A stretch of DNA of 49,118 nucleotides from contig PMTR01000191.1 of the NCBI GenBank assembly GCA_003167255.1, positions 1 through 49,118 of the forward strand, read 5' to 3'. The translations under genes were made by a program, and so were the position numbers. The notes under the pieces were generated by a model that saw only the letters and a list, made by a program, of their open reading frames with translations, was not told the DNA's origin and did no database searches. Positions 41,342 to 45,413 of this stretch are shown here, piece after piece (positions within the stretch are counted from its first letter, which is position 1; every line of letters begins with the position of its first letter). Origin of the DNA: Bryobacterales bacterium. Lineage in GTDB: Bacteria > Acidobacteriota > Terriglobia > Bryobacterales > Bryobacteraceae.

Positions 41342-42077
41342 TCAGGTCACAGTATAACTGGCGCTCCGTTCGGCTTCCAATCAGCGACGCTGAAGAACTG
41401 GGAACAGGGTCGAACGCGGCCGGATGGTCCGGCGCGTGTGCTTTTGGCTGTGATTGCCCGTCACCCCGAGGCTGTGGAAGATGCGCTGCGAAAGGCCGGT
41501 TAGCTAATCCTTGGGCAGCGGATACAGGTCGAGCTCCTTCATCGGGTAGTGCTTGAGGCTGTCGGTGATGAGGGTCAGTTCATTATAAAGAGCCACGGCG
41601 GCGACGGTTACATCCGTGGTGGCCAGGGTGATGCCCTTACGGCCGTAGTCGCGTTTCAGGTCGCCAGCCAGGCGCGCCACTGGCCAGGCGATGGGATAGT
41701 ATTGCAGGCTTTGGAGAAGGTTCAGGGCTTGCCGTATGGCAACTTTTTCAGCAACCCACCCCCTTGAGGCCATCCGAATCAAGGGACATCCTACCAGCCG
41801 GGGATGGTTTCCGATAACGAAGAGCATTCTATCGGTAGTGCCCGCAGGGACGAATCTTGAGGAATGGCTCAAAAGCCTGGTTGCGGGCAGGGCACAGCGG
41901 AACAGTGGATCAAGGAAGGCAAAGCAGGCGGCGAGTAATATTAAATTTGTTTAATGAATGTGGCAACGCGACTGGTGTGGATGTACCATTACCGAGAAAG
42001 CGGACGCCGAAATGGGAAATGGTCTAGTGTAACAGAGTGTAATAGCGCCCATACGAACTTAGCGTCCGGAGGACACC
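41342..42077. other. Gene-poor region, about 730 bases, with gene remnants
   Basis: Apart from a broken PIN gene (41504-41827) no complete gene is visible. On the plus strand 41395-41503 encodes an open tail ending VIARHPEAVEDALRKAG and TAG, which looks like the C-terminus of a lost protein. The right part, 41830-42077, is more AT-rich than the surroundings and ends with the strong ribosome site ggagga before the next gene. The appearance is that of decayed accessory DNA next to an acquired two-gene unit. Confidence 0.6.
41504..41827 (-). pseudogene. PIN-domain (VapC-like) toxin remnant, N-terminal half lost
   Basis: The C-terminal two thirds read like a VapC ribonuclease toxin: ALNLLQSLQYYPIAWPVARLAGDLKRDYGRKGITLATTDVTVAAVALYNELTLITDSLKHYPM. 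TTDVTVAAVAL holds the central Asp and LTLITDSLKHY the last acidic residue of the PIN active site. The N-terminus should contain the first Asp in a phrase such as VLDTNVLID and about 40 more residues; instead it reads MLFVIGNHPRLVGCPLIRMASR, so an internal deletion or rearrangement has removed it. No VapB antitoxin is recognisable upstream. A functional nuclease is not expected. Confidence 0.65.
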
Positions 42078-43559
42078 GTGCCGGAAATATTAGTTCTGCT
42101 CAGCCGCGCTCTCCTGGCCCTCGTTTTTGCGGCATCGGGAGCGGCAAAGCTCATCGCGCAGGCGAGAACGCGCGATAGCCTGGTTGAGTTCGGTGTGCCG
42201 CTCCGTGTCGCTGCCGCAGCTGCCGTTGTTCTCGTTCTGTCTGAGCTCGCGGTCCCCGCACTACTCCTTCCCATTGCCACAATCTGGTATGGCGGTATCG
42301 GGGCGCTTGCTCTTCTCGTCGTGTTTACTGCGGCCATCGCGGTCAATCTCCTTCGGCATCGCAAGCCAAACTGCAACTGTTTCGGTCAACTGCATTCTGC
42401 GCCGATTGGCTGGCCCACCCTTGCACGCAATGTCTTTCTTGGCGGGATCGCAGGCTTGGTCGTTTTGAAGGGGCGTGACCCAAACGCTCTCAGCTTCCTA
42501 GCCTGGACACATTCTTTAACCATAGCCGAATCCCTTTCCGTTGCCTTCTCAGTTATCGACTTCCTCCTGCTCGTAGCCGTTGCGGCGTTCCTTCTGCAGA
42601 TCATGCGCCAACAGGGCCGTGTGCTCCTGCGGCTCGAGTCTCTCGAATCCGGTGCCGGCACACAGGCCAGCTCGCCGGCGGCTTCGTCTGTTCCCGAGGC
42701 CGGGCTGCTTCTGGGGACTCCAGCGCCTGAGTTCGAATTGGGCCGTCTCGACGGTGGCCGCTCGAGTTTGACCACTCTTCTGGCGGCGCAAAAACCTGTC
42801 TTGTTGCTGTTTTCCCATCCGGACTGTGGCCCATGCCAAGCCCTTCTTCCAGATATCTCGGGCTGGCAGCGTGATCTTGCCGGGGATGTGACGATTGCGG
42901 TTGTCGCCGAAGGTTCGGCTGCGGAGAATCGTGCGAAGCTGGAACCGTTCGGCATTACTCGTGTGCTCCTTCAGAAAAGCCGGGAGGTCGCCGAGCGCTA
43001 CCAGGCGTACGGTACGCCAGCGGCAGTGGTTGTCGCCGCCTCCGGCGCCGTCGAGAGTCATGTAGCCTCGGGCCGGGATGCTATCCGGACTTTGGTCAGC
43101 ACCATGTACGCCCGCCGCCAGACGCCCATCTCCAATGGCGCGGAAGTTACCTTGGGGGAGCCGGCGCCGGATTTGTCATTCAAGTCCCTTTCCGGCAAGA
43201 AGATCTCCCTTTCGGGTCTCCGCGATAGAGAAACCCTGCTTTTATTCTGGAACCCTCAGTGCGGCTTCTGTCAGAAGATGCTCCCCGATCTCAAGGCTTG
43301 GGAAGCCGCCGCGTCGCCTGACGCTCCACGGCTTCTCGTGATCTCTAATGGCAGTTTGAGTGAGAACCGCGCCATGGCTTTGCGTTCCACCATTGTTTTT
43401 GACGCTCATTCTCAGGCGAGCCGGGCGTTTTCTGCTAACGGAACACCAATGGCCGTTCTGCTTGACCGCGACGGACGGGTGTCATCCCGTGTTGCCGCCG
43501 GAGCTCAAGCCATTTTCGCTCTCGCCAATTCGCACGAGGGCTCCCCGTCGCTCCGCTGA
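42078..43559 (+). CDS. MauE/DoxX-like membrane protein fused to two thioredoxin domains
   Basis: A 493-residue fusion starting GTG, with aggagga eight bases upstream. Residues 1-190 are a MauE-like domain: helices around LLALVFAASGAAKLI, AAAAVVLVLSELAVPALLL, IGALALLVVFTAAIAVNLL, then the extracytoplasmic CNCFGQ (about 98) and two more helices. Residues 205-345 are a first thioredoxin/peroxiredoxin-like domain with HPDCGPCQALL (Cys about 250); residues 355-493 a second with NPQCGFCQKML (Cys about 395) and a cis-Pro loop (NGTPMAVLLD; GTPAAVVVA in the first). MauE and MauD are separate in methylamine utilisation and oxidise the disulfide-rich MauA. The neighbour's product is a Tat-exported, very Cys-rich protein 25 bases downstream, an obvious client. 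Methylamine genes themselves are absent. Confidence 0.88.
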   Translation: MPEILVLLSRALLALVFAASGAAKLIAQARTRDSLVEFGVPLRVAAAAAVVLVLSELAVPALLLPIATIWYGGIGALALLVVFTAAIAVNLLRHRKPNCNCFGQLHSAPIGWPTLARNVFLGGIAGLVVLKGRDPNALSFLAWTHSLTIAESLSVAFSVIDFLLLVAVAAFLLQIMRQQGRVLLRLESLESGAGTQASSPAASSVPEAGLLLGTPAPEFELGRLDGGRSSLTTLLAAQKPVLLLFSHPDCGPCQALLPDISGWQRDLAGDVTIAVVAEGSAAENRAKLEPFGITRVLLQKSREVAERYQAYGTPAAVVVAASGAVESHVASGRDAIRTLVSTMYARRQTPISNGAEVTLGEPAPDLSFKSLSGKKISLSGLRDRETLLLFWNPQCGFCQKMLPDLKAWEAAASPDAPRLLVISNGSLSENRAMALRSTIVFDAHSQASRAFSANGTPMAVLLDRDGRVSSRVAAGAQAIFALANSHEGSPSLR

Positions 43560-43584
43560 AACTGGCCATAAGGAGGCCTTAGCC

Positions 43585-45117
43585 ATGGAACATTGGTTTG
43601 ACGATGTAGCCAAGAAGCTGGCCTCTGGGGACCGTTCCCGCAGGACATTTTTGGGAGGGATTTTCGCCGCGGTCGGTGCAGCTGGTTTTCAGTCTCCGGT
43701 TCGCACAGAGAAGCGCGGCTCTTGCACCATCGACTACAGCCCCCAGCCCACCCTTCATCACAGCGTTCAATCCACCTTCAACGGAAAAACTCTTACTCAT
43801 ACCACGGAACTCACGCTCACCCGCCCAGACCGAAAGGGTCAAGCGGCACATATAGCCAGCACCAGAACGATAACGCTGGGTAGTGATCTCCTGGTTCGCA
43901 TCCAAAGTGATTCGCGCGAAGGCTCGACTAAGGTCAACCTCTCTTACGGTGCGGCATTCCGAGGCGTTCGCCAGGCCTCGTACACAACAGACGGTAAGGT
44001 AATCGAGGGGACGATCGACGGCCGCCGCATTTCTCCGCTTCCCGTTGGAGCCGACGTTAAGTCGCTCAGATTTGCTGACCGTAACCCGCCTCCCTCAGTG
44101 ACGCTCGACCCTGCCCTCGAAAGGGCCCTTACCGCAATCTTGCAGAAGGCACATGACGACATCTCGTCTTGCAGGCAGGCGGAACTGCGCCGTGATGCGA
44201 AGGGCGCACCTAAGGCAAGAACGATCCCTCAGAACAGTGACTCTTGCCAAAACTGCCAGAACAGCTGTGCCGCCGCTGCGGCGACTTGCGATGCCGCAGG
44301 CGCCGCGGGTTCCGCTGCTTGCTTCATTTTCTTTGGGGCCTGCGCTGCCGCGGCTATTGTTGCCTGCGCGGTTGCTGGGGGTGTCTGTGTCAACAATTGC
44401 GACAATCCGGGCACCCGTAACCAGCCGGGAGGCGCTTGTTGCCCGGTGGGCTGCCCAAATGTAAATGGTTGTTGCTACGCGGATCAACAGTGCAGTGGCA
44501 CCGCAAACGTCTGTTGCGCATCGAACGTGTCCGTGTGCGCCGGCGTCTGCTGCCCCCCTGGGTTTATCTGCAAAGATGGCATTTGCTGTACCACGGATCG
44601 GCCGGTGTGTCACGGTGTCTGTTGTTCCAATGGCCAGGCATGCTCGTCGGAGGGTATCTGCTGCCGCCAGCTCGAGTTCAACACAAAGCCCGTGTCGTGC
44701 GGCGGTAGCTGCTGCGCCAAAGACCAGAAGTGTGCGAAGTCTGCCCCAAATTTACAAGCCACCTGCTGCCCCAAAGAGCACGTTTGCGGACAAAATTGCT
44801 GCCCGGGCGGATGCGTGAACGGCGACAAGTGTCAGCCTCTCTGCCTGACCGGCGTACACTGCGGCGCCAACTGCTGCCCCTGGGGGTGCGCCGATGCAGC
44901 GACGTCTACTTGTAGCAAGCCGCAAAACTGCGCAAAAGATCAATATGTGTGCTTATCGGAACAGTCTGGGGCGCCGAATGTCTGCTGCCCCAACGGCACG
45001 GGGTGCCTCAACGGAAAGTGCTGCCCCCCGAATACGGTGAGTTGCAACAATAAGAGTACTGGAGTAATGGGCTGCTGGCCGAAATCGAATTGTGCTGTTC
45101 CACCGCCTCCGAGGTAA
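43585..45117 (+). CDS. Tat-exported, extremely cysteine-rich protein
   Basis: A 510-residue protein from ATG 43585, with aaggagg upstream. The N-terminus MEHWFDDVAKKLASGDRSRRTFLGG has a twin-arginine signal (SRRTFL, Arg19-Arg20) plus hydrophobic stretch, so it is exported folded. Residues about 45-205 are a beta-rich domain almost without Cys. An Ala/Cys segment follows (SCQNCQNSCAAAAATCDAAG, nine Cys), partly hydrophobic. Residues about 265-510 repeat short CC-bearing modules (VCCPPGFICKDGICC, VCHGVCCSNGQACSSEGICC, HCGANCCPWGC). By hand count there are about 58 cysteines, most in CC pairs. The repeats recall granulin/Stig1-like cystine knots; no family is certain. It is probably cotranscribed with the MauE-thioredoxin gene. 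Confidence 0.88.
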   Translation: MEHWFDDVAKKLASGDRSRRTFLGGIFAAVGAAGFQSPVRTEKRGSCTIDYSPQPTLHHSVQSTFNGKTLTHTTELTLTRPDRKGQAAHIASTRTITLGSDLLVRIQSDSREGSTKVNLSYGAAFRGVRQASYTTDGKVIEGTIDGRRISPLPVGADVKSLRFADRNPPPSVTLDPALERALTAILQKAHDDISSCRQAELRRDAKGAPKARTIPQNSDSCQNCQNSCAAAAATCDAAGAAGSAACFIFFGACAAAAIVACAVAGGVCVNNCDNPGTRNQPGGACCPVGCPNVNGCCYADQQCSGTANVCCASNVSVCAGVCCPPGFICKDGICCTTDRPVCHGVCCSNGQACSSEGICCRQLEFNTKPVSCGGSCCAKDQKCAKSAPNLQATCCPKEHVCGQNCCPGGCVNGDKCQPLCLTGVHCGANCCPWGCADAATSTCSKPQNCAKDQYVCLSEQSGAPNVCCPNGTGCLNGKCCPPNTVSCNNKSTGVMGCWPKSNCAVPPPPR

Positions 45118-45338
45118 GCGAGGCGCTGGAGCGCGCCGCGAAGGGGAACCGAGCCTTACTCAGCTTGAAGTTCAAAGGCCAACACCGAGAACATCGTTAA
45201 ATTCGTTGACTCCGGCGGCGCCTCGGGGCGGACAAGGGCGCCGGGAAGTTGGTGGAATCGCGAGGAGGCCACGTCTACAGAATCGACCTCAGCACTTTCC
45301 CGCCAGAGCCCAAAATTACTCATGAAGGAAAAAGCTGG

Positions 45339-45413
45339 TCGGGCTGCCGAGATTTGAACTCGGGACCTCTTGCACCCCAAGCAAGCGCGCTAGCCAGGCT
45401 GCGCCACAGCCCG
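45339..45413 (-). tRNA. tRNA-Pro (anticodon GGG)
   Basis: On the minus strand the sequence folds as a standard tRNA: acceptor stem CGGGCTG/CAGCCCG with discriminator A, D-arm GCGCAGCCTGGCTAGCGC, anticodon stem CTTGC/GCAAG around loop TTGGGGT (anticodon GGG), and T-arm CCGAGTTCAAATCTCGG. CCA is not encoded. It sits right after the low-GC accessory segment 41.3-45.1 kb; tRNA 3' ends are frequent integration sites, but no integrase or duplicated tRNA end was found. Confidence 0.96.

Follow-up and report, generated by a model that had tools for sequence, protein, structure and literature searches.

MauA, the disulfide-rich substrate of the mau maturation system of Paracoccus, is exported by the twin-arginine translocation (Tat) pathway. 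Its maturation draws on a MauE membrane domain and a MauD-like anchored thioredoxin (Trx), and a related theme, the linking of two membrane cysteines to a Trx partner, is found in DsbA/DsbB and VKOR-Trx. Here, we analyzed a gene pair that resembles these systems, located in contig PMTR01000191.1 of a Bryobacterales bacterium (49,118 nt, referred to below as the window; the source assembly, GCA_003167255.1, comprises 7.35 Mb and is 98.85% complete). The first gene encodes a fusion of a MauE/DoxX-like domain with two Trx modules; the second, on the same (plus) strand, encodes a twin-arginine protein packed with cysteines, which, like its counterparts elsewhere, we call the cargo. Compared with the mau system, which is also mentioned in PMC7794033, we find here a single polypeptide that comprises two to four Trx modules and unrelated, variable substrates with a common extended signal. 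The Trx modules adopt the fold known from ResA, TlpA, and CcmG, but they are arranged in tandem, fused to MauE, and have other genomic partners. A further likeness exists to three Streptomyces families described by decRiPPter (PMC7794033), in which mauE, in one family together with mauD, is clustered with predicted precursors of at least eight cysteines and for which a modification role was suggested. In those families the genes are separate and the neighbors are precursors of ribosomally synthesized and posttranslationally modified peptides (RiPPs); the part of that paper available to us mentions no fusion, Tat signal, or genome-wide set. Among the matches listed by our literature search, none gave an account of the linkage between fusion and cargo or of the extended signal; the content of PMC6083913 turned out to be unrelated.

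The original prediction, made from the DNA of the window, read the pair as a dedicated maturation unit in which a single fused oxidase acts on one cystine-rich protein, and its description of the locus was borne out: the fusion carries CNCFG, CGPC, and CGFC motifs, a gap of 25 bases separates the genes, the cargo gene has a strong ribosome-binding site (RBS) of its own, and the number of cysteines, estimated at about 58, is exactly 58. The linkage of the two proteins is supported by adjacency, a common signal, and co-occurrence across genomes, but the idea of one enzyme for one protein did not stand. Instead, we consider it likely that the fusion is a dedicated thiol-disulfide enzyme of a protein-export branch that handles cystine-packed proteins; the disulfide chemistry and its direction we infer from analogy with the systems above. 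The unit is wider than a pair, with a special export tag marking Cys-packed proteins and a membrane fusion probably making their disulfides. A role in methylamine utilization was set aside, as MauA (PF02975) had no match in the genome, a weak test in that the control genomes had no match either.

The first line of evidence is adjacency. A profile scan of genome contigs (one genome per species, 84,980 species) returned 134 relatives of the fusion, the best 80 of which were analyzed (a single-protein scan with the fusion itself had given 27 pattern matches but no relative). They originate from Acidobacteria, Eremiobacterota/WPS-2, Chloroflexi including Thermomicrobiales, Actinobacteria, Nitrospira, and Deltaproteobacteria, with several loci sharing a genome. 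After removal of 21 loci of a Blastocatellia-type clade discussed below, 59 loci from several phyla remained. Around these, we counted Cys-rich open reading frames (ORFs), defined by at least 15 cysteines with at least 10 of them within some 60-residue stretch; this density test replaced an earlier Tat filter that was too strict and overlooked PLA2-type neighbors and cases behind antisense ORFs. Within 500 bp of the fusion there were 24 Cys-rich ORFs in 55 kb, compared to 3 in 102 kb at 0.5 to 1.5 kb, 0 in 129 kb at 1.5 to 3 kb, 3 in 147 kb at 3 to 5 kb, and 0 in 190 kb at 5 to 8 kb. Thus, 24 of the 30 found within 8 kb sit at most 500 bp away (0.434 per kb versus 0 to 0.03 per kb beyond), and with this concentration chance pairing was rejected. 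In total, 26 of the 59 loci hold a Cys-rich ORF within 1.5 kb, 25 detected by script and one (L086; L, G, and C numbers are our handles for loci, genomes, and contigs) by eye, with the cargo lying upstream of the fusion in 17 loci, downstream in 9 (L069 having both), and on the opposite strand in 3.

The order of the window organism gives a similar picture. The fusion matched 12 of 257 genomes at an E value of ≤1e-20, and all seven full-length forms, found in six genomes including the window, have a Cys-rich gene near them, in six cases adjacent or within about 1.1 kb and in one (G161 C436) at 3.4 kb. No such gene lies near the single-Trx MauE genes of G163, G170, and G172 (the contig of G172 is short). 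The two sets overlap: the contigs of L052, L055, L062, L075, and L113 also appear as loci of G028, G161, G116, G161, and G199, respectively. Among Chloroflexota, one contig, G405 C39 (L223 and L224), harbors three fusions and four signal-bearing genes of 16 cysteines each, every fusion adjoining one of these genes. Together with the invariance of the motif cysteines and prolines across the fusion alignment described below, this recurrence makes the pairing more than a chance arrangement.

The second line of evidence is the signal. In an alignment, most cargos share an N terminus consisting of FDxLxKxLA, 4 to 5 residues, RRxxL, and a hydrophobic stretch; we call proteins that carry it tagged. 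S-R-R-x-F-L is the Tat consensus motif, and the window cargo contains it as SRRTFL at residues 18 to 23, with SRRTFLGGIFAAVGAAG at residues 18 to 34 comprising the RR motif and the hydrophobic stretch behind it, while the Pfam TAT_signal model gave no match. Some neighbors of fusions lack the signal (L052, L093, L094, L097, and G025), and the upstream protein of L069 has QR instead of RR. We searched whole genomes with a model of a 37-residue segment built from 26 sequences; the window signal scored an E value of 4.8e-14, but the window is itself a row of this model. Among the 257 genomes of the order, a full-length signal at an E value of ≤1e-5 was found in only five (G000, G042, G116, G161, and G199), all of which carry the fusion or, in G042, a MauE-less form. 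The other matches in the order were weak or covered the ordinary Tat part of the model, and three genomes with a fusion or shortened fusion (G025, G028, and G046) were missed by this search. Since six of the seven strong places are model rows, the search draws its weight from the 252 genomes that were negative. The only new place, G161:C495, encodes 85 amino acids (aa) only, with 4 cysteines in the 50 residues behind the signal. That the signal is simply the ordinary Tat signal of these phyla was rejected, as 252 of the 257 genomes lack a full-length match at this threshold.

Further searches linked tag and fusion even where the two are not neighbors. The original prediction implied that homologues of the fusion would mostly have a Cys-rich Tat neighbor, and the raw count contradicts this, since 54 of the 80 loci have no Cys-rich ORF within 1.5 kb. 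However, 21 of these 54 form the separate, housekeeping-like clade, and 22 of the remaining 33, held by 21 genomes, were included in a signal search of 33 further genomes (11 of the 33 loci fell outside it). Tagged proteins at an E value of ≤1e-5 were encoded elsewhere in 18 of these 21 genomes, one or two of them through model rows (G276 and probably G262), and 12 of the 21 had from at least 11 to at least 60 matches at an E value of ≤0.001, these numbers being lower bounds because no more than 150 candidates were scored in each genome. In contrast, none of the 12 Blastocatellia-type genomes searched alongside had a signal at ≤1e-5, the one match being at 2.7e-4. Among 281 Chloroflexota genomes, the fusion profile matched 9 at an E value of ≤1e-50 (G324 and G386 in the Trx part only), and a full-length signal at ≤1e-5 occurred in 12: in 8 of the 9 fusion genomes but in only 4 of the 272 others (Fisher test, 5e-12). 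Here, no more than 27 candidates were scored in each genome, the positives include at least one model row (G315), and the only signal of G386 is read into a Trx module.

These four fusion-less genomes (G306, G314, G384, and G449) all contain Trx homologues (best E values of 1e-30 to 1e-38), whose match ends at most 30 bases from the signal match in three of them. In G306 (L225 564-4270), a tagged frame of 846 aa with 150 cysteines is directly followed by a MauE-less frame for an anchored tandem Trx. Including G042 of the order, five genomes have nothing more than an anchored tandem or single Trx beside a tagged gene (that of G449 is cut by the contig); an anchor helix is seen where the start is present, and no MauE domain occurs in the DNA examined. 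The MauE domain is therefore optional.

The third line of evidence is the cysteine content of the tagged proteins. We collected 77 distinct signal proteins. In 75 of them, the signal is followed by 40 residues or more, and we called those with at least 8% Cys Cys-rich. This level was reached by 66 of the 75 and by 43 of the 50 that were outside the model, compared to none of 28 other matches from the searches of the order and Chloroflexota, which are mostly ordinary Tat signals (two, L132 and L136, are short spurious matches). Full disulfide pairing predicts even numbers of cysteines, and the number behind the signal is even in 42 of 47 complete Cys-rich cargos, compared to 263 of 425 among control ORFs that hold 8 cysteines or more (P = 2.7e-5, the 47 including paralogues and the controls including overlapping loci). 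One of the five odd cargos, L047, holds a lipobox-like cysteine that need not pair. The even numbers suggest that the cargos are fully disulfide paired.

Apart from signal and cysteines, the cargos have little in common. The window cargo matched no Pfam or NCBIfam family at an E value of ≤1, STIG1 and PLA2G12 included, its predicted model (pLDDT of only 67.7) matched no PDB entry at an E value of ≤0.001, and it found no further match in its own genome; it does align with seven other cargos that have a CC-repeat end. Neighboring cargos score above the cutoff of PLA2G12 (group XII phospholipase A2) in L062, L069, and G046 and match STIG1 in L071 and L115, whereas of five others scanned, one had weak matches and four had none; CC-repeat proteins without a classification are also among the neighbors. 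Most of the adjacent cargos exceed 200 aa, and several contain recognized globular domains. Judged by these comparisons, the cargos belong to no single family, and most share the N-terminal signal instead. As a side observation, bacterial group XII-like PLA2G12 proteins with the same or a degenerate signal are encoded at L062 2034-3065, L069 7256-7945, L032 4626-5522, and L178 613-1200.

We then asked what the fusion itself reveals about its function. Its membrane domain is a member of the MauE family (PF07291, 86 bits versus a curated cutoff of 27) and has the Cys-x-Cys pair typical of this domain, C99 and C101 being present in 43 of 43 aligned rows. The MauD equivalog TIGR02661 aligns to residues 155 to 341 but stays below its cutoff (84.1 versus 188.6 bits). 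In the same alignment of two-Trx forms, window included, all six motif cysteines (two in MauE and four in the Trx modules, CGPC at residues 250 to 253 and CGFC at 395 to 398), P314, and P457 are invariant, and T313 and T456 are nearly so. The AlphaFold model has a mean pLDDT of 90.2 and a pTM of 0.55; the nearest solved folds of the Trx modules are ResA, CcmG/DsbE, and TlpA, the first module superimposing on 3gl3_A with a VIA-align Z score of 18.9 (136 residues; root mean square deviation, 2.0). The structure matches cover mainly residues 207 to 351, and no DsbB or VKOR chain is among those listed, which excludes nothing. Unlike in the DsbB and VKOR systems, Pfam DsbB/VKOR models had no match in the fusion at an E value of ≤1, and none in the whole genome, although control genomes were positive; moreover, the distribution of the fusion tracks the tagged cargo. 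Outside the Blastocatellia-type clade, the first-module motif is CGPC in 48 of 60 proteins, and the second-module motif is CGFC in 52, CGYC in 7, and CGHC in 1 (window included). Many Thermomicrobiales forms have three Trx modules, and L063 has four. CGFC or CGYC together with a threonine before the cis-proline are features resembling DsbC-type isomerases, a likeness that fits cargos with many cysteines. The genome contains no second close copy of the fusion, as its four other matches (E value of 2.8e-8 or weaker) cover Trx parts only.

The fusion product is hence proposed to be a membrane thiol oxidase/isomerase, acting as follows. Cargos, which carry an unusually long twin-arginine signal with the conserved n-region FDxLxKxLA before RR, probably an amphipathic helix, would be exported by Tat. 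Disulfide exchange with the tethered Trx modules would follow on the outer face of the membrane, one module probably oxidizing and the CGFC/CGYC module probably isomerizing, and the MauE CxC pair would pass electrons to the membrane quinone pool, by analogy to MauE/DoxX and DsbB. In the window lineage, oxidase and cargo seem to form one operon, while the single fusion of many Thermomicrobiales would act on tagged proteins encoded across the genome. It is tempting to go further and to speculate about a “cystine export” branch of Tat, in which the n-region is an address tag that directs unrelated Cys-packed proteins to the anchored MauE-(Trx)2-4 enzyme for disulfide assembly at the translocon exit; we regard this as a real possibility while leaning slightly against it. 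Just as tentatively, such a branch, with dozens of tagged proteins in some genomes, could be a bacterial counterpart of the oxidation station of the endoplasmic reticulum. Directly behind the fusion of a Rubrobacter contig, which also has Cys-rich ORFs upstream, lies a TatA/B-like gene (PF02416; L072 2875-3150), an arrangement that would fit a physical coupling to Tat. If a dedicated enzyme of this kind exists, it would explain how bacteria of large, mostly uncultured groups equip their exported proteins with tens of disulfides; it would define a substrate class for MauE-Trx fusions and make it testable whether Tat feeds postexport oxidation. The signal would give a search handle for many unannotated secreted proteins, phospholipase-like ones included, and the fusion suggests itself as an enzyme for producing highly disulfide-bonded proteins.

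Several observations weigh against such a dedicated enzyme. No Cys-rich ORF lies within 1.5 kb in 33 of the 59 loci, some of whose contigs end nearby, and none was found in the DNA examined around any of the 21 Blastocatellia-type loci, so the fusion architecture can work without a cargo. G270 and G275 have a fusion but no signal protein at an E value of ≤0.001, G271 has weak ones only, and degenerate signals in G025, G028, and G046 make the link looser. The only signal of G386 (L188 407-1573) joins a Trx module at its middle, in the same reading frame, and precedes no cargo; this frame arose either by recombination or as a chimera of the assembly. It is one of seven among the 50 new signal proteins with less than 8% Cys, the others being L214 (21 Cys in 455 residues), L177 and L201 (10 in 252 and 240), L200 (1 in 100, next to another tagged frame), L095 12744-13163 (4 in 102), and L179 2710-3105 (6 in 82). 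Conversely, two of the 28 matches that are not Cys-rich (L138 and L148) extend over most of the signal model. In addition, reducing thioredoxins carry a CGPC motif as well, and the nearest folds include reductases. Finally, Tat prefers folded proteins, which is an odd fit with oxidation after export.

The points on motif and fold would equally suit a real but reductive linkage, in which MauE sends electrons outward and the CGPC/CGFC modules hold the cysteines of the cargo in the reduced state or correct wrong disulfides, for instance, for the installation of metals or peptide cross-links. The prevalence of CGPC in first modules and the ResA/TlpA/CcmG-like folds speak for it, as do PqqD and SPASM radical SAM genes in the vicinity of a tagged Cys-rich gene in two Acidobacteriota loci, although these were recognized in two loci only and without a systematic search. 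The even cysteine numbers argue the other way, and PLA2G12 and STIG1-like cargos are disulfide proteins by family knowledge. On balance, we consider a reductive role unlikely.

Alternatively, the fusion might replace DsbA/DsbB for all exported proteins, with Cys-rich genes lying nearby because their need is greatest. For such a general periplasmic machinery speaks the lack of Pfam DsbB/VKOR matches in the genome, and the clade set aside above provides a possible precedent. Its 21 loci form one group (support of 100/100) in a tree that left out L043, L100, L108, and L111, labeled L066 and L119 positive for their smaller Cys-rich neighbors, and has mostly unsupported inner forks in the rest. A der-type GTPase gene lies upstream in all 21 and a tgt-type gene downstream in 20 (the contig of the last one ends after 199 bases), while none of the 59 others has either; the genes were assigned by sequence motif, with a Pfam check in L098 only, where EngA, TGT, YajC, and SecD were confirmed in the region that includes the MauE-Trx-Trx gene (L098 5466-12776). 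Second modules carry CPHC, CPFC, or CPYC in 15 of the 21 proteins, and CP[FHY]C motifs are DsbA/DsbG-like. This version looks like a vertically kept housekeeping form and is possibly the general disulfide oxidase of those Acidobacteria. In the order of the window and in Chloroflexota, however, the rarity of the fusion (12 of 257 and 9 of 281 genomes at the thresholds given above) shows that it is no household gene, and its distribution tracks the tagged cargo, so we regard a general machinery as quite improbable for the window pair.

Least credible is that the Cys-rich proteins are RiPP-like natural products to be modified further, with the fusion as one modifying enzyme: PqqD/SPASM radical SAM genes beside short CC-repeat tagged proteins (G161 C456 and G042) and the mauE/mauD homologues beside the Streptomyces precursors (at least in the part of PMC7794033 available) would suit it, but the adjacent cargos are mostly long and several are globular, and no modifying gene was noticed by eye among the ORFs adjoining the window pair, where no further search for one was made. 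At L030 2367-6930 and L038 5009-9828, both in Acidobacteriota, tagged Cys-rich genes occur together with PqqD and SPASM radical SAM genes, and NTP_transf_5 is additionally present in L038 and in G042; the arrangement looks like a RiPP-like cluster that shares the tag.

Features of the window (positions of contig PMTR01000191.1) and the evidence for each
Feature	Position	Strand	Evidence
Partial PIN-domain ORF, upstream of fusion	41504-41872		PF01850, profile positions 44-109 of 120
RBS of fusion, GGAGG	42068..42072	+	Sequence; start codon GTG at 42078
MauE-Trx-Trx fusion gene, 493 aa, GTG start	42078..43559	+	ORF; Pfam MauE, AhpC-TSA, Thioredoxin_2; AlphaFold model; 43-row alignment
MauE/DoxX-like membrane domain, residues 4-129	42087..42464	+	PF07291, E value 3.5e-24; model helices 2-131
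CNCFG motif, residues 99-103	42372..42386	+	Both Cys invariant in 43-row alignment
Long membrane-anchor/linker helix, residues 149-193, ending in LLQIMRQQGRVLLRLE	42522..42656	+	AlphaFold model
First Trx module, ResA/TlpA/CcmG-like fold, CGPC at 42825-42836	42696..43121	+	Pfam; structure matches
Second Trx module, CGFC at 43260-43271	43155..43523	+	Pfam; model; structure matches
RBS of cargo gene, AAGGAGG	43570..43576	+	Sequence
Twin-arginine Cys-rich protein, 510 aa, 58 Cys, 13 CC; proposed substrate	43585..45117	+	ORF
Extended Tat signal, MEHWFDDVAKKLASGDRSRRTFLGG..., RR at 43639-43644; common to unrelated Cys-rich proteins	43585..43692	+	Alignment; genome searches
Cargo N-terminal beta domain, residues 40-153	43702..44043	+	Predicted model; YGAxFxG and GxIDGR conserved in set of eight
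Hydrophobic helical segment with spaced Cys, residues 218-273	44236..44403	+	Sequence; eight-protein alignment; model
CC-repeat region, residues 285-505	44437..45099	+	Sequence; eight-protein alignment; model
tRNA-Pro (GGG) gene, 218 bases downstream of cargo gene	45336-45413	minus	

Scans for local elements added little: a promoter scan returned nothing on the plus strand, and terminator matches were no more numerous than in shuffled sequence. The original prediction had further described the pair as a cassette acquired into decayed DNA of lower GC. The GC content is indeed lower in the three bins from 42 to 45 kb (0.59 to 0.61 versus mostly 0.61 to 0.68 elsewhere), but the drop is slight and other dips are equally low. 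As for decayed surroundings, we found the partial PIN-domain ORF upstream, perhaps the remnant of a decayed toxin-antitoxin system, and the tRNA-Pro gene downstream. The neighborhood of a tRNA gene is a classic site for acquired DNA, and both this gene and the slight GC drop are compatible with acquisition without proving it. The nearest relative of the fusion comes from another phylum, as acquisition would lead one to expect: its sister in the tree is an Eremiobacterota protein of 58% identity (support of 100/99), which also has a cargo directly downstream, whereas full-length relatives from the family of the window organism share 36 to 45%. The window cargo is closer to that of L044 (57%) than to that of L042 (35%), and these relationships would fit both a transfer of the pair and an exchange of partners.

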